This document shows positions 1 to 61,028 of a stretch of 64,000 nucleotides of DNA, piece after piece (the stretch's first letter is position 1; each line of letters begins with the position of its first letter). The stretch is from the NCBI RefSeq assembly GCF_002979755.1, contig NZ_PCPP01000006.1:50958-114957 (forward strand), given 5' to 3'. This DNA is from Chryseobacterium culicis. Its GTDB lineage: Bacteria > Bacteroidota > Bacteroidia > Flavobacteriales > Weeksellaceae. The notes beneath the pieces are model-generated. The model worked only from the letters and a program-made list of their open reading frames with translations, ran no database searches and was not told the origin of the DNA. The translations under genes and the position numbers were made by a program.

Positions 1-313
1 TAGTGCCGTCAATGGTCAATTTTTACTTCGTAAAGTCAATAGTGAATCGGTATACTTATAAAAATTCACAAGCGAAGCGAATTGACTATTCACCATTCAC
101 CATTAGTGACGTCAATGGTCAATTTTTACTTCGTAAAGTCAATGATAAATCGCTATACTCATAAAAATTCACAAGCGAAGCGAATTGACTATTCACCATT
201 CACCATTAGTGCCGTCAATGGTCAATTTTTACTTCGTAAAGTCAATAGTGAATCGGTATACTTATAAAAATTCACAAGCGAAGCGGATTGACTATTGACT
301 ATTCACCATTCAC
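1..313. repeat. Three tandem copies of a 103-bp intergenic repeat
   Basis: Copies begin at 1, 104 and 207 and differ by a few bases. Each holds an inner hairpin TTTAC-TTC-GTAAA (22-34 in copy 1) and the segments ATTGACTATTCACC and GTCAATGGTCAAT, which form an imperfect inverted repeat across copy junctions. Related single copies with other hairpin sequences occur at 39409-39660, 45155-45270 and 60857-61028. The array may continue to the left of the window. No coding content is supported: the short reading frame across it is just the repeat. Confidence 0.9.
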
Positions 314-3004: not shown

Positions 3005-3184
3005 ACCACAAAAGTCGCAAAAGTTTTTTAACACTTAAGTAAATAAAGCTATCATACTGACTGTTATAAGAACACTTAAGTTTTTGAAAATCTACGATTT
3101 TCGCGAATACTATAATTGAAACGGCGAGAATTCCCCTTCTCTGGAGGGGTGGCGAAAATTCAAAGAATTTTTGACGGGGTGGTT
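3005..3184. repeat. Intergenic element E1 (ACCACAAAAG-type end), right end replaced by a second repeat
   Basis: Left end ACCACAAAAGTCGCAAAAG (3005-3023) starts 4 nt after the preceding stop codon. Inner hairpin GAAAATC-TAC-GATTTTC lies at 3086-3102. The matching right end is missing. Instead, 3131-3184 carries another repeat type with CCCCTTCTCTGGAGGGG and its own hairpin AAAATTC-AAA-GAATTTT (3155-3171). It looks like one element broken or joined with another. Confidence 0.75.
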
Positions 3185-3214
3185 TAATACAACAACAATT
3201 TTAAAACAAACAAA

Positions 3215-4199: not shown

Positions 4200-4410
4200 A
4201 GGGCTGGAAGCTGGAAGAAGGAGGCTGGAAGTTATTGATGTCGGATAATAAATAGATTGGTTTACAATTAACTTCAATTGTCATTCCGACGAAGGAGGAA
4301 TCTCTTTGTTATCTACAGAATAGTGCAATAGAAATCTACTTTTTATCAATATACTAATATAACTTCCCTCCCCCAGCTTCCCACTTCACTTCCCCAACCC
4401 CAAACCTTAC
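4200..4410. repeat. Intergenic element with GGAAG-rich inverted ends, containing a nested repeat fragment
   Basis: Left arm GGGCTGGAAGCTGGAAG and a following GGCTGGAAGTTAT (4200-4235) are complementary to a right arm at about 4369-4400 (AACTTCC, CCAGCTTCCC, CACTTCACTTCCC). Between them, GTCATTCCGACGAAGGAGG (from about 4280) is a known-looking Bacteroidota intergenic repeat. A second member of the GGAAG family is at 26657-26800. Confidence 0.65.
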
Positions 4411-5435: not shown

Positions 5436-5625
5436 ACCACAAAAGGCACAAAAGTTTTAAACACTTAAGTTTTTTCAGAACCAGGCCTTATGCGTAATAA
5501 GTACACCTAAGTTTTGTGAAAATCTTTAATTTTCATCTTGTGTGAACTTTTCTGCGGTATCATTTTAAACTTACTTAAGTGAACTCAAGTGTTTTAAAAT
5601 GAAACCTTTTGTGACTTTTGTGGTT
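5436..5625. repeat. Intergenic element E2 (ACCACAAAAG-type ends)
   Basis: Inverted ends ACCACAAAAGGCACAAAAG (5436-5454) and CTTTTGTGACTTTTGTGGT (5606-5624). Inside are the CACTTAAG motif and a GAAAATC-like hairpin near 5518-5535 (GAAAATCTTTAATTTTC). It sits between the stop of the cyclase gene and that gene's terminator. Confidence 0.85.
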
Positions 5626-11357: not shown

Positions 11358-11426
11358 CATCAATGCGCCAGAAGAACTCACAGATTCTTTTTACTTTTTC
11401 TCTAGGAAGCAATATTTATTAGTAAT

Positions 11427-11591
11427 CGCAAAGGCGCAAAGAAATTTAATAACATACTGCTTTAAGGCGCAAGAAAATCAAAGATTTTCAGCAAGTTTAT
11501 TTCATCCAAAATTCAACAGAATTAAATTTTATCAAAGATAAAATCCTTGCGCCTTAAAACATAAGAAAAGAAAAAACTTTGCGTCTTTGCG
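11427..11591. repeat. Intergenic element E3 (CGCAAAGG-type ends)
   Basis: Inverted ends CGCAAAGGCGCAAAG (11427-11441) and CTTTGCGTCTTTGCG (11577-11591). Inner hairpin GAAAATC-AAA-GATTTTC at 11473-11489. The right half is almost identical to that of E4 (13730-13898). It lies between two convergent genes; nothing else was seen in 11358-11609. Confidence 0.9.
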
Positions 11592-11609
11592 TTTTCCAAT
11601 ATCTCACAA

Positions 11610-13699: not shown

Positions 13700-13729
13700 A
13701 ATAAAAAAAATTTTGCAAGGTTAGAAAAA

Positions 13730-13898
13730 CGCAAAGGTGCAAAGAAAAATAAATAATGTGTTGTTTTTTAAGGCCCAAGAAAATCAAAGATTTTTAGCAA
13801 GAAATAATCTATAAAGTATTAGGAATATACAATTTTATTGCAGATAAAATCCTTATGCCTTAAAACATAAGAAAAGAAAAAAACTTTGCGCCTTTGCG
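13730..13898. repeat. Intergenic element E4 (CGCAAAGG-type ends)
   Basis: Inverted ends CGCAAAGGTGCAAAG (13730-13744) and CTTTGCGCCTTTGCG (13884-13898). Inner hairpin GAAAATC-AAA-GATTTTT at 13779-13795. Nearly identical to E3 in its right half. Confidence 0.9.
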
Positions 13899-13920
13899 TT
13901 TTCCAACAAAATATTCCACC

Positions 13921-17760: not shown

Positions 17761-17942
17761 ACCACAAAAGTCACAAAAGATCTAAACACTAAAGGTTATA
17801 AGTGAATCTTTAGTGATTATAAAGAACACTAAAGTTTTGAAAATCGAAGATTTTCTTCTGATGTGTACTTTATGCAGCATTTTTATTAACTCTCTCAGTG
17901 GGCTAAAGTACTCAAAAATAAACTTTTGTGACTTTTGTGGTT
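17761..17942. repeat. Intergenic element E5 (ACCACAAAAG-type ends)
   Basis: Inverted ends ACCACAAAAGTCACAAAAG (17761-17779) and CTTTTGTGACTTTTGTGGT (17923-17941), a perfect 19-bp complement. Inner hairpin GAAAATC-GAA-GATTTTC at 17839-17855. It sits between the hmgA stop and its terminator. Confidence 0.92.
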
Positions 17943-18150: not shown

Positions 18151-19662
18151 ATGTTAGAAAGAATCAGATTAGAAAGTTTACGCGAAAAAGTTACTACAGC
18201 GGAAAATGCTGTAAAAATCATTAAAGACGGTATGACTATCGGGTCCAGCGGCTTTACAAAAGCAGGTGACAGCAAGGCCATTTTGCCCGCACTCGCAGAA
18301 AGAGGAAAAACAGAAGACCTTAAAGTTACTTTGATGACCGGAGCCTCACTGGGTCACGGTACCGATGGAAAACTGGCAGAAGCTAATGTTCTGAAGAAAA
18401 GAATGCCGTTTCAGGTAGATCCCATCTTAAGAAACAAAATCAACAGCGGTGAGATTCTCTTCATCGATCAGCATTTGAGCGAAAGCGCCGAGCTTCTTCA
18501 CACCAAAAATCTTCAGAGCATTGATGTCGCCATTATTGAAGCAGCCTATATTGAAAGAGACGGAAGCATTGTTCCTACCACTTCTGTGGGTAATTCAGTA
18601 ACCTTCGCTGCTTTGGCTAAAAAAGTAATCATTGAAATCAATACAGAGGTTCCTGAAGAAGTATATGGCATCCATGATATCTACCAGGCAGAAGATTATC
18701 CGTACAGAAATGTTATTCCTATTGTTGCCCCATGGAACAAAATCGGGAGAAAAAGTATTCCTGTTGACCCTGAAAAAATTGAAGCCATTGTATTTACCAA
18801 TCGTAAAGACAGCCCGGCAGATATCGCAGAACCGGACGAAAAAACAACAGCCATCGCCAAACACCTTCTTGCCTTCTTTGAGAATGAAGTTCTTTTAGGA
18901 CGTCTTACAGACCGATTGCTTCCTCTTCAGGCAGGGATTGGTAAAGTAGCCAATGCTGTTCTGACAGGATTCAAAGACAGTAATTTTTATGATCTGACAA
19001 TGTTTTCCGAAGTACTTCAGGACAGTACATTTGATCTGATCGATTCCGGTAAACTGAGTTTCGCCTCCGCATCATCCATTACCGTATCTCAGGAATGCTA
19101 TGAAAGAGTCCTGGGAAATCTTTCAAAATATAAAGACAAATTTGTTCTAAGACCTCAGAATATTTCCAATACTCCGGGACTGATCCGAAGATTGGGAGTA
19201 ATAGCCATCAATACTGCTATTGAATTCGATATTTATGGAAATGTAAACTCTACCCATATCGGAGGTACAAAAATCATGAATGGAATCGGAGGTTCCGGAG
19301 ACTTCGCAAGGAATGCTTATTTAAGTATTTTTGTGACTCAGGCTGCTTCAAAAGGCAATAATATTTCTCACGTTCTCCCAATGGTATCTCATACCGATCA
19401 TACAGAACATGATGTGGATATTCTGGTAACAGATGTGGGATTGGCAGACTTAAGAGGTTTAGCACCGAGAGAAAGAGCACAAAAGATTATCGACAATTGT
19501 GTTCATCCGGACTATAAAGAAGAATTACAATCTTATTTCGACAGAGCCTGTGAAAAAGGAGGTCATACTCCTCATTTGCTGCAGGAAGCTTTCAGCTGGC
19601 ATCTTCGATTTGCAGAAACAGGAAGTATGAAGCAGAAAACAGCTGTTGAAACTGCCCTTTAA
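18151..19662 (+). CDS. Acetyl-CoA hydrolase/transferase family protein, succinate CoA-transferase-like
   Basis: 503-residue class I CoA-transferase that would exchange CoA between succinyl-CoA or acetyl-CoA and acids such as acetate. The N-terminal half has SSGFTKAGDSKAILPAL and LMTGASLGHGTDG. The C-terminal half holds the likely catalytic glutamate in LTMFSEVLQDS, then SASSITVS and the GGTKIMNGIGGSGDFARNA loop, which is typical of the succinate/acetate group. HVLPMVSHTDHTEHDVDILVTD and GLAPRERAQ follow. It may feed fumarate and acetoacetate products of tyrosine breakdown into acyl-CoA pools, but that link is only positional. Confidence 0.88.
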   Translation: MLERIRLESLREKVTTAENAVKIIKDGMTIGSSGFTKAGDSKAILPALAERGKTEDLKVTLMTGASLGHGTDGKLAEANVLKKRMPFQVDPILRNKINSGEILFIDQHLSESAELLHTKNLQSIDVAIIEAAYIERDGSIVPTTSVGNSVTFAALAKKVIIEINTEVPEEVYGIHDIYQAEDYPYRNVIPIVAPWNKIGRKSIPVDPEKIEAIVFTNRKDSPADIAEPDEKTTAIAKHLLAFFENEVLLGRLTDRLLPLQAGIGKVANAVLTGFKDSNFYDLTMFSEVLQDSTFDLIDSGKLSFASASSITVSQECYERVLGNLSKYKDKFVLRPQNISNTPGLIRRLGVIAINTAIEFDIYGNVNSTHIGGTKIMNGIGGSGDFARNAYLSIFVTQAASKGNNISHVLPMVSHTDHTEHDVDILVTDVGLADLRGLAPRERAQKIIDNCVHPDYKEELQSYFDRACEKGGHTPHLLQEAFSWHLRFAETGSMKQKTAVETAL

Positions 19663-19689
19663 GATTTTCAGCAAAATAATAAACAGAAT

Positions 19690-19730
19690 AAAAGGACTGA
19701 ATGCCAATGCATTTGGTCCTTTATCTTTTA
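19690..19730 (+). terminator. Probable intrinsic terminator of the CoA-transferase gene
   Basis: AAAGGAC arm (19691-19697) pairs with GTCCTTT (19716-19722), with an inner GAATG/CATTT continuation and a T-rich tail. Confidence 0.6.
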
Positions 19731-19882
19731 TACTGAATCTGGTTCATTTTGTATGACAAAAGTCTGTATAATATCCTAAAAATATTTATCTGAATATAAA
19801 ATTATAAGATTATCTTTGAAAGAATAGAAGTATTTTTTGAGGCAGAAAAATACTCTTAACACCCTTTTAAAAAAGATAAAAT

Positions 19883-25298: not shown

Positions 25299-25780
25299 AC
25301 CGCAAAAGTCACAAAAGGATTTATGATTACGCAGTCATATTTAACAGATCTTACCTATAACATAAATGGTGCTTGTATAGAAGTCCACAAAGTTTTAGGG
25401 CCTGGTTTATTGGAAAGCGTATATCATAAATGTCTGGAAGAAGAATTTAGATTAAGAAATATTAATTTTAAATCTGAGTTTAAAGTTCCGGTACATTATA
25501 AAGGAAAAGAAATTAACTGTGATTTCTTTTGTGATTTTTTAATTGAAGACTTAATTGTGGTAGAATTAAAGTCAGTTGCAAAGCTTAATGATATTCATAG
25601 AGCTCAACTTCTTAACTATATTAATTTAATGAAGAAACCCAAAGGTATTTTAGTCAATTTTAATGTCAAAAATCTATACCACGAAGGACAGGAAACCTTT
25701 GTGAATCAATATTATGATATGCTTTTTTAAACTTTAAAGATTAAAGCTATTTTACTTAAAACTTTTGTGCCTTTTGTGGT
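25299..25780. mobile_element. GxxExxY-carrying element with ACCACAAAAG-type inverted ends
   Basis: Left end ACCGCAAAAGTCACAAAAG (25299-25317) and right end CTTTTGTGCCTTTTGTGGT (25762-25780) are complementary at 17 of 19 positions and match the ends of elements E1, E2 and E5. Between them is a single gene. The unit lies inside an otherwise compact fahA/flavin reductase arrangement, with 8 and 10 nt to the flanking genes. No transposase is present and no target duplication is obvious. Confidence 0.7.
25323..25730 (+). CDS. GxxExxY protein, PD-(D/E)XK nuclease-fold family
   Basis: 135-residue protein with the name-giving motif Gly28-LL-Glu31-SV-Tyr34 in LGPGLLESVYHKCLEEE. A nuclease-like core follows: Asp71 in CDFFCDFLI and Glu81-Leu-Lys83 in VVELKSV, the D-(x)n-ExK pattern of PD-(D/E)XK enzymes, then the helix HRAQLLNYINLMKKPKGILVNFN. 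The family function is not established; a DNA nuclease is expected from the fold. The gene begins 5 nt inside the left inverted end of its element and its base composition is richer in A and T than the neighbouring pathway genes. Four gene-less elements with related ends or hairpins lie elsewhere in the window. Confidence 0.88.
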   Translation: MITQSYLTDLTYNINGACIEVHKVLGPGLLESVYHKCLEEEFRLRNINFKSEFKVPVHYKGKEINCDFFCDFLIEDLIVVELKSVAKLNDIHRAQLLNYINLMKKPKGILVNFNVKNLYHEGQETFVNQYYDMLF

Positions 25781-33794: not shown

Positions 33795-33908
33795 AACCAT
33801 TAAGGAGGATTGAAGAAATAAGTATAGTTAAGATGAATCTTTCTGATTCTTAAGCTAAAAGCGAAGCTTATCTTAATACTCTTAAGCTCTTATTATATCT
33901 TAATGGTT
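33795..33908. repeat. Intergenic element E6 (ACCATTAAG-type ends)
   Basis: Inverted ends AACCATTAAG (33795-33804) and CTTAATGGTT (33899-33908). Inner hairpin GAATC-5 nt-GATTC at 33835-33849. It sits between cstA and its terminator and resembles the other elements in layout but not in sequence. Confidence 0.75.
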
Positions 33909-39408: not shown

Positions 39409-39660
39409 ATTATTTGTCAATGGTCAATTTTGCTTCGCAAGTGAATTGTGAATGATTACCCATCGATTAGAAAATTTCTCTATAATGATTATTGGTAACC
39501 TTAAATCTCACAACCCAAATCACGTAAATAAACAAACACAGCGAATTACCATCAATTAGAAAATTTCTTCCTATTGATTATTCATAAACTTAAATCACGC
39601 AACCCGAATCCCGAAACAAAAAATTCACAAGCAAAGCGAACTCACCATTCACCACTCACG
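39409..39660. repeat. Long copy of the 103-bp-repeat family with an internal duplication
   Basis: Ends contain GTCAATGGTCAATTT (left) and CACCATTCACCACTCACG (right). Inner hairpin TTGC-TTC-GCAA lies at 39430-39440. The middle has two tandem copies of an about 85-nt segment (from about 39453 and about 39541), each with GATTAGAAAATTTCT-type and AAATCACG-type parts. Its reverse complement shares CGGGTTGCG and TTTTCTAAT blocks with 60857-61028. It occupies most of the gap 39331-39737. Confidence 0.75.
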
Positions 39661-45154: not shown

Positions 45155-45270
45155 GTTGATAATTAATAGTGAATCGTGAATGGTCAATTCACTTCGTTTG
45201 TGAATTTGTATAAAGTGATTATTGACTATTGACTTTGCGCAGCAAAAATTGACAATTGACCATGAGACTA
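45155..45270. repeat. Copy of the 103-bp-repeat family between recR and the LURP-one gene
   Basis: Contains GAATGGTCAATTCACTTCG, ATTGACTATTGAC and AATTGACAATTGACC with an inner hairpin TTTGC-GCA-GCAAA (45234-45246). It separates two divergent promoters. Confidence 0.8.
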
Positions 45271-48496: not shown

Positions 48497-48527
48497 TTTA
48501 ATCTAAATATTTTTATTTAATGATAAA

Positions 48528-48622
48528 GATGCTTCGACAGGCTCAGCATGACATCTCTAATACTAATGCTTTTTTTTAGAGATGAATTTTTAGCTGTGTC
48601 ATGCTGAGCCTGTCAAAGCATC
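48528..48622. repeat. Intergenic inverted-repeat element with 26-bp arms
   Basis: Arms at 48528-48553 and 48597-48622 (core GACAGGCTCAGCATGACA) pair with a single mismatch. A second inner stem ATCTCTAA / TTAGAGAT continues the fold. It forms a false N-terminal extension of the following LOG gene. Confidence 0.9.
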
Positions 48623-48645
48623 CAAACCATAAAAAACCTTATACA

Positions 48646-60856: not shown

Positions 60857-61028
60857 GGTTGATTAGTGAATAGTCAATCGTCAATCCGCTGCGCTTGTGA
60901 ATTTGTTGCGTGATTTTCGGGTTGCGAGATTTGAGAGTAAAAGCAATCAATATGGAAGTATTTTCTAATATGTGGCTAAATCATTCACCATTCACTTTGC
61001 GAAGCAAAAATTCACCATTGATATTTAG
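60857..61028. repeat. Long copy of the 103-bp-repeat family between asnB and its terminator
   Basis: Contains GTGAATAGTCAATCGTCAAT, GCGCTTGTGAATTT, a middle block with CGGGTTGCGAGATTTGAG and TATTTTCTAATATG, then ATTCACCATTCAC and an inner hairpin TTTGC-GAA-GCAAA (60996-61008). The middle block matches the reverse complement of 39541-39640. Confidence 0.8.

Follow-up and report, generated by a model that had tools for sequence, protein, structure and literature searches.

The intergenic repeats described here have several counterparts among known systems. In REPIN-RAYT systems, as in the present case, a selected nuclease gene is accompanied by many short intergenic palindromic elements that share its flanks; here, however, the enzyme is of the PD-(D/E)XK and not of the Y1 HUH type, and the element encloses its gene, which has inverted iterated arms on either side. 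The genome of Chryseobacterium culicis harbours two Y1 genes (PF01797), and within ~1.5 kb of them neither an ACCAC, CGCAAAG or 103-bp-family end nor an element hairpin was found (at up to two substitutions); only 9-mers one or two changes away from ACCATTAAG occur nearby, as by chance. Since neither Y1 gene carries these ends, the palindromes beside them being different ones or none, RAYT was rejected as the partner, and the cassettes described below are not members of REPIN-RAYT systems. The Y1 transposase gene of locus L278 (C1:2050608-2050949), which has GGGCTTTAGCCC palindromes of its own, likely forms an ordinary RAYT-REP pair.

The repeats also have the properties of MITEs, being short, non-coding, intergenic, dispersed, present in several copies, bounded by terminal inverted repeats and patchy among relatives. 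Their ends set them apart from typical MITEs, being built of iterated units of 7 or 8-9 nt, in many cases with a hairpin further inside. Among the elements viewed, none with such ends encodes a transposase; the ends are common to cassettes carrying a GxxExxY gene, whose product is no known transposase. The IVSs of 23S rRNA, for which mobility has been proposed (PMC4990558), likewise have inverted ends around a four-helix-bundle ORF (S23p/PF05635) and a patchy distribution. The loci considered here, in contrast, lie mostly between protein-coding frames and have 7-nt iterated arms, while the GxxExxY cassettes carry another protein and another period. Finally, solo and MGE-Cas4 proteins (PMC5704561) share the fold and the D-ExK-QxxxY residues with the GxxExxY protein, although the latter is 135 aa long, stands alone in an inverted-end cassette and its Cas4 match covers model residues 24-129. 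As to structured RNA families, no Rfam match at the gathering score was obtained in the window (the whole analysed stretch of 64,000 nt), and the 103-bp repeat family displayed no covariation beyond chance. The features of the window are as follows, with the strand given where one is assigned.

1-310, plus strand: three 103-bp units in tandem, with 7-nt iterated ends GTCAATG; hairpins at 22-34, 125-137 and 228-240, GNA cores at 70-79, 173-182 and 276-285
3005-3102: ACCACAAAAG-family element without a right arm; hairpin at 3086-3102
4207-4387: inverted-end element with 7-nt iterated units (GGAAGCT..); by eye, its ends resemble those of the four-helix-bundle locus L068
5436-5624: short ACCACAAAAG-family element; arms 5436-5454 and 5606-5624, imperfect hairpin 5518-5534
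11426-11592: short CGCAAAGG-family element; two hairpins, 11473-11489 and 11526-11544
13729-13899: short CGCAAAGG-family element; hairpin 13780-13794
17761-17941: short gene-less element of the ACCACAAAAG family; arms 17761-17779 and 17923-17941, inner hairpin GAAAATC-GAA-GATTTTC at 17839-17855
25299-25780, plus strand: gene-bearing ACCACAAAAG cassette; arms 25299-25317 and 25762-25780 around the GxxExxY gene
25323-25730, plus strand: GxxExxY protein, PD-(D/E)XK nuclease family (PF13366, E=1.9e-39; TIGR04256; Cas4-like fold)
33795-33908: short ACCATTAAG-family element; hairpin with a 5-nt loop at 33835-33849
39423-39440, plus strand: end of the 103-bp family; TTTGC-TTC-GCAA hairpin at 39429-39440
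45167-45264: 103-bp-family element (L273); hairpin 45234-45246, outer limits by eye
60864-61015: 103-bp-family element (L274); outer limits approximate

An earlier note on this DNA had described several repeat families with one layout, namely inverted ends and an inner hairpin mostly with a 3-nt spacer. This layout is real, and the different families do follow one common design, hairpin included. On re-reading, the elements at 17761, 5436, 11427, 13730 and 33795 and the 103-bp units at 1-310 were found where they had been placed, with small corrections: the element at 3005 is present without a right arm that matches, the closing pair of the 5436 hairpin is mismatched, and the second hairpin of 13730 is imperfect. 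The arms of element 17761, together with one flanking base, amount to 20 nt with 100% complementarity. Among the ACCAC elements having both arms, nine of 12 contain the hairpin at up to three substitutions; it is absent from L014 at the same tolerance and, by eye, from L011 and L023. Two further repeats were encountered in the window. A family with TGCTTCGAC..GCTCAGCATGACA ends is found at 48516-48634 (arms 80% complementary), and a module GGAGGGGTGGC..AAAATTCAAAGAATTTTTGACGGGGTGGTT recurs beside truncated ACCAC elements, at ~3130-3185 of the window and at L010, L028 and L029.

When the 5.01-Mb genome was searched for family ends, the families with ACCAC ends, with CGCAAAG ends and with the 103-bp core all proved to be multi-copy. 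ACCAC ends numbered 57 versus 26 reversed-pattern controls at up to three mismatches and 30 versus 0 at up to one, CGCAAAG ends 84 versus 23 controls, and the 103-bp core 27 versus 0. The prevalence of the 3-nt spacer, part of the layout described earlier, was borne out mainly in the element loci. In the own-genome loci fetched for their ends or genes, 56 palindromes with a stem of at least 7 have a spacer of 3, versus 14-31 for spacers 0-2 and 4-8, the commonest being TTTTATC-N3-GATAAAA (20) and GAAAATC-N3-GATTTTC (14). The window alone contains 15 spacer-3 palindromes where five Markov resamplings average 4.6, a mild distinction, because spacers 7 and 8 also reach 15 each (Markov means 6.0 and 8.8). 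Spacer 3 was not enriched in 16 stretches from congeners, picked irrespective of elements (38 vs 25-49), nor were such hairpins in excess at 80 named GxxExxY genes (the best 80 of 556 matches, nearly all from other genera), where they make up two of 44 palindromes, one of the two being the Chryseobacterium locus L094.

The ACCAC ends at 25299-25780 enclose a single reading frame of 135 aa, the product of which shares 93 and 88% identity with Chryseobacterium records. The genome encodes five GxxExxY genes (PF13366), all five of which lie among inverted ends, and three of them, one inside the window, carry the ends of window repeat families. The window gene (L062) has ACCACAAAAG ends; L064 has the ACCATTAAG ends of element 33795 and is its gene-bearing relative; L065 has a CGCAAAGG short element in full on one side and a right terminus on the other. 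The ends of L063 are AACACAAATG-like and those of L061 CCCGCAGATTTC-like, with similar pieces noticed by eye beside L006 and L008. Of the repeat families, ACCAC and ACCATTAAG have gene-bearing relatives that are complete, CGCAAAGG and 103-bp partial ones. The automatic IR score, in which the upstream flank is compared with the reverse-complemented downstream flank and arms are scored within 250 nt of the gene, was 19-21 for four of the five loci and 10 for L065.

The window GxxExxY protein matches PF13366 with 135 bits against a cut-off of 22. Residues E31, Y34, D71, K83, N112 and F113 are present in all 81 sequences compared, E81 and Y99 in 80 and Q95 in 77, and both the profile match and the catalytic residues D71, E81 and K83 agree with membership of the PD-(D/E)XK, Cas4/RecB-like group. 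The best structural match to the AlphaFold2 model (pLDDT 96.8) was SSO0001 (Z 9.1, rmsd 4.4 over 101 residues), which we take to be a Cas4, followed at Z 7.6 by the restriction enzyme BpuSI and a Wolbachia CinA-CinB chain; the Cas4-titled chain 4r5q scored Z 6.4. The Cas4 likeness rests on the Z of 9.1 and on the motifs, because Foldseek returned nothing at E<=0.001 (best 5e-3). PADLOC gave only weak Cas4 matches (E 1e-4 to 0.02), and the results of a PDB sequence search stayed at E 0.4 or above. Judging from the model, GxxExxY resembles a stand-alone Cas4/RecB-like PD-(D/E)XK putative nuclease. COG4804 is presumably a nuclease family different from it. The gene is under purifying selection, with dN/dS of 0.02-0.12 in six site groups among congeners, which, together with the retention of one cassette in five genomes, is also compatible with a host function.

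The association of gene and ends extends well beyond this genome. One genome per species was scanned, and the best 80 of 556 matches were taken, which therefore lean to relatives of the query; even so, they span Bacteroidota, Verrucomicrobiota, Chloroflexota, Planctomycetes, Acidobacteria, Proteobacteria, Methanothrix and others. An IR score of at least 15 was reached by 67 of the 77 named loci that remained after three with short flanks were set aside, versus 10 of 586 control positions displaced by 700-1000 bases and scored in the same way (p~1e-34, a value which, like those of the PF05635 and end-number tests below, overstates independence because the species are related). Against 200 shuffles, 69 of 79 named loci (one dropped) had p<=0.05, 60 of them at the floor, and 10 of the 79, all among the best 80 of 556, showed no inverted repeat. 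Arms are exemplified by ACCACATAG-GCACATAG-GACACATAG, ACCACGGAG-ACACGGAG and ACCATTAAGG-CATTAAG, and the motif ACC[AG][CT]N2-3AG occurs on both sides of 47 of 77 named loci versus two of 293 controls. Besides bacteria of many phyla, one archaeal genome has a cassette of this design: L145 shows arms, whereas the other archaeal locus among the best 80 of 556, L132, has none.

Closer to home, 30 loci were fetched from eight congeners, and after eight gene fragments had been left out, 14 of the 22 intact GxxExxY loci scored at least 15, the other eight being without clear inverted arms. Sixty congeneric genomes contain 1146 ACCAC ends (up to one mismatch) versus six reversed-pattern matches, and the number of ends correlates with that of GxxExxY matches (rho 0.51, p=3e-5). 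Five genomes lack a GxxExxY match and have 0, 0, 1, 3 and 7 such ends, against a median of 19 in the others; genomes with 'close' homologues, a class set by hand, have a median of 21.5 versus 14 (p=0.005). There are outliers in both directions, since G017 has the most ACCAC ends (72) and no close P0001 homologue (best E 5e-18), while G003 has five GxxExxY matches and no ACCAC ends. Overall, we regard it as very probable that the GxxExxY gene and the inverted ends are associated. Among open papers in PMC, with subscription papers and preprints outside this scope, no link of GxxExxY/PF13366 genes to inverted-end elements was found.

A second gene family shows the same arrangement. PF05635, the four-helix bundle of the 23S rRNA IVS protein, has 14 matches in the genome, some of them pieces of one gene, and is present in 116 of 148 Bacteroidota genomes drawn. 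Six of nine own loci (the remaining matches being fragments) and 18 of 29 further loci had an IR score of at least 15, versus two of 304 controls. The two families differ in the period of their arms. In loci scoring at least 15, the 136 GxxExxY arms have a peak at lag 9 (8.95 vs 6.75 shuffled) and the 48 PF05635 arms peaks at lags 7 and 14 (11.1 and 10.9 vs 6.5), corresponding to units of 8-9 nt and 7 nt, respectively; shuffled arms have no peak. In the 103-bp family GTCAATG/GTGAATG is iterated every 7 nt, and upstream of the PF05635 gene of L069, whose downstream arm is poor (score 12), there is a 103-bp-like end that includes the family's hairpin. On the basis of this one locus and the period, the 103-bp family likely belongs to the four-helix-bundle class, as the GGAAGCT family probably does. 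One four-helix-bundle cassette (L067) seems to lie between carA and carB, the neighbours being named by eye. The TAACTGA 7-mer direct repeats of Beggiatoaceae (PMC4679880) resemble the 7-nt arrays of the four-helix-bundle cassettes.

What the inner hairpin marks is indicated by the cassettes of other species. At the 25299 site of G023, the order is terminus, GAAAATC-TAC-GATTTTC, gene, GAAAATC-GTA-GATTTTC and mirror terminus; G036 has the same arrangement with an imperfect left hairpin, and in L094 of C. endalhagicum the GxxExxY gene is likewise bracketed by inverted GAAAATC-N3-GATTTTC hairpins. Since the gene is bracketed by the hairpin in three genomes, the short elements look like two termini joined at the place of the gene. 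The G023 terminus after the gene aligns with window 3025-3102 (minus strand) at 78% over 83 columns (E=1.5e-9, small database), and the inner part of the other G023-type terminus matches five further short elements of the own genome. With the hairpin excluded, the right parts of all 10 testable short elements match the right terminus (p<=0.033), and the left parts match the left terminus in only five of 10 (p<=0.05); these p-values are a little too low, because the better-fitting orientation was chosen each time from the two and no correction applied. L011 and L023 were left out of this test, and an eleventh element has no recognisable hairpin. At the level of sequence it is well supported that the ACCAC short element would represent two termini meeting at the hairpin; for the other families this reading would be an extension. 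The short elements in general are probably gene-less cassettes. The idea that the hairpin is universal in GxxExxY cassettes was dropped: the window's own cassette (25299-25780) has no inner hairpin in this copy, and the named loci show no excess.

Comparison with the eight congeners, as the earlier note had proposed, revealed that elements come and go at orthologous sites. The element at 17761 is present in the own genome and in G002 and absent at the site in seven congeners; that at 33795 is shared with G023, G030 and G020 and absent in five of the eight; 5436 is lacking at the site in G044, G037, G023 and G020, and 11427 in G044 and G036. The apparent target duplication, which in MITEs has a fixed length, differs between the three sites (~21 nt at 33795, ~15 nt at 11427 by eye, none at 5436). 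The 25299 site holds the ACCAC-type gene in the own genome, G002, G037, G020 and G030 (apparently frameshifted), another GxxExxY cassette in G023 and G036, and a gene-less element in G044 and G016. The L064 site, read in all of the eight but G036, contains the gene in the own genome and G037, an internally deleted form in G016 and, in five other congeners, a different element beside a leftover right end. The TGCTTCGAC..GCTCAGCATGACA-end family is met again at the 25299 site of G044 and G016, and a related-looking element at the L064 site of the five congeners, so that its sites are those of GxxExxY cassettes in other species. A further short-element family occupies the 36926 site as units of 136-203 bp or tandem arrays of 710-805 bp in G002, G016, G020, G037, G023 and G030, with none in the own genome or G044. 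At the 19640-19880 site, G044 (L160) and G016 (L174) bear an insertion of ~610-660 bases with a small reading frame, whose KNLKKMKRNELKNVKGG start looks by eye like a leader of bacteriocin/secreted-peptide style.

The earlier note had argued from compensatory changes in the stem that a conserved shape is recognised, as DNA or RNA. A TTTGC/GCAAA to TTTAC/GTAAA change does exist, yet it is confined to one local tandem array and does not exceed chance: in the 103-bp family 116 of 500 shuffles were as good, which leaves covariation unsupported there as evidence of a recognised shape. In the stem of that family (27 copies, nine distinct) four of five pairs never vary and there is one double change; the stems of other families are, by eye, nearly invariant. 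The shared design, hairpin included, stands; a selected shape finds no support from covariation in the 103-bp family, and gene-bearing cassettes of one design explain the layout better. The variable part of the hairpins is the loop. In the 103-bp family, 25 of 28 left loops read T-N-C, with T, G or A as N, and 20 of 21 right loops read G-N-A, with any of the four bases as N; one probably spurious match, ATT, is kept among the 21, and the copies in tandem arrays are non-independent. GNA loops on two or more GC pairs, the d(GCGNAGC) type, form extraordinarily stable DNA mini-hairpins according to PMC4686876. A GNA loop with GC closing pairs being of this type, the 103-bp hairpin would be favoured to act as single-stranded DNA rather than RNA. 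The rule is only partial, because AAA is the commonest single loop in GxxExxY-type families, where GNA accounts for four of 14 (ACCAC) and 20 of 37 (CGCAAAG). ViennaRNA, run for all 64 loops in four contexts, gave equal energies for all 3-nt loops within one context.

Among the other explanations, it may be supposed that GxxExxY and the four-helix bundle are host or passenger genes, that their arms are RNA-level elements serving mRNA excision, processing or autoregulation, and that the short repeats are decayed leftovers moved by ordinary recombination. Such a role has a precedent in 23S IVSs with inverted ends and an S23 ORF, which are cut by RNase III (PMC4990558), and the dN/dS of 0.02-0.12 fits it as well. 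Both neighbours lie on the strand of the gene in 44 of 80 GxxExxY loci and both opposite in three (29 and one of 38 for PF05635), although genes generally tend to co-orient and the bias may reflect later selection. That different cassettes with unrelated ends occupy one site (25299), and that dispersed gene-less copies up to 84% alike lie at different sites, is hard to reconcile with this scheme, which we consider unlikely.

Two further proposals appear less probable still. If the short elements were MITEs of a conventional DDE or Y1 transposase encoded elsewhere, with GxxExxY as a hitchhiker, their size, ends and dispersal would be as observed; the gene family, however, accompanies the ends and their period across phyla, the scored arms lie within 250 nt of the gene and so leave no room for a transposase, and the two Y1 genes of the genome, which bear on Y1 and not on DDE enzymes, lack these ends and hairpins nearby. 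This makes such an origin improbable. The spacer-3 enrichment in element loci and the TNC/GNA loops of the 103-bp family would suit a convergence in which unrelated elements arrive at a hairpin that some host factor recognises, be it as DNA or as RNA. The lack of covariation beyond chance in the 103-bp family speaks against it, as do the complete gene-bearing relatives of the ACCAC and ACCATTAAG families and the partial ones of the CGCAAAGG and 103-bp families, and we hold it to be very improbable.

In the explanation we prefer, with a probability of about 0.58, minimal cassettes with inverted ends carry the nuclease or the four-helix-bundle gene, and the repeat families are their gene-less copies. 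A full cassette would consist of a terminus, one small gene and a mirror-image terminus, the terminus being built of iterated 8-9-nt units followed, in some cassettes of the genus, by the 3-nt-loop hairpin. The GxxExxY gene would belong to the families ACCACAAAAG and ACCATTAAG and, less completely, CGCAAAGG, and the four-helix-bundle gene of the 23S-rRNA-IVS family to 7-nt units; in a short element the termini would be joined, with the hairpin at the place of the gene. The nuclease may recognise its own termini, through the iterated units and/or the extruded hairpin, and break the DNA there, and copies may then spread into intergenic gaps of operons, the gene-less ones being served in trans in a RAYT/REPIN-like manner. 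Whether the nuclease moves its own element and the gene-less copies is a question on which the odds seem even to us. More tentatively, and at somewhat below even odds, GxxExxY genes could be the hallmark of a new and very small kind of mobile element, spread over many bacterial phyla and also archaea (one locus with arms, L145), in which a lone Cas4-like nuclease moves itself and its gene-less copies, perhaps by acting on single-stranded hairpins at the termini. The four-helix-bundle/IVS cassettes could then form a parallel 7-nt class, the period alone could predict the gene, and both classes could account for much unexplained intergenic inverted-repeat content.

For GxxExxY, a gene family with almost no literature, its name occurring in two of 5.39 million papers searched, and for the four-helix-bundle family, both widespread, the finding offers a testable role, and for several intergenic repeat families a single origin. 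It predicts that an inverted array of 8-9-nt units will have a GxxExxY gene nearby or will have lost it, and that a 7-nt array points to a four-helix-bundle gene. Should the nuclease be the driver, a Cas4-like enzyme in place of a transposase would power a mobile element, and were movement by GxxExxY shown, such elements would constitute a class of their own.
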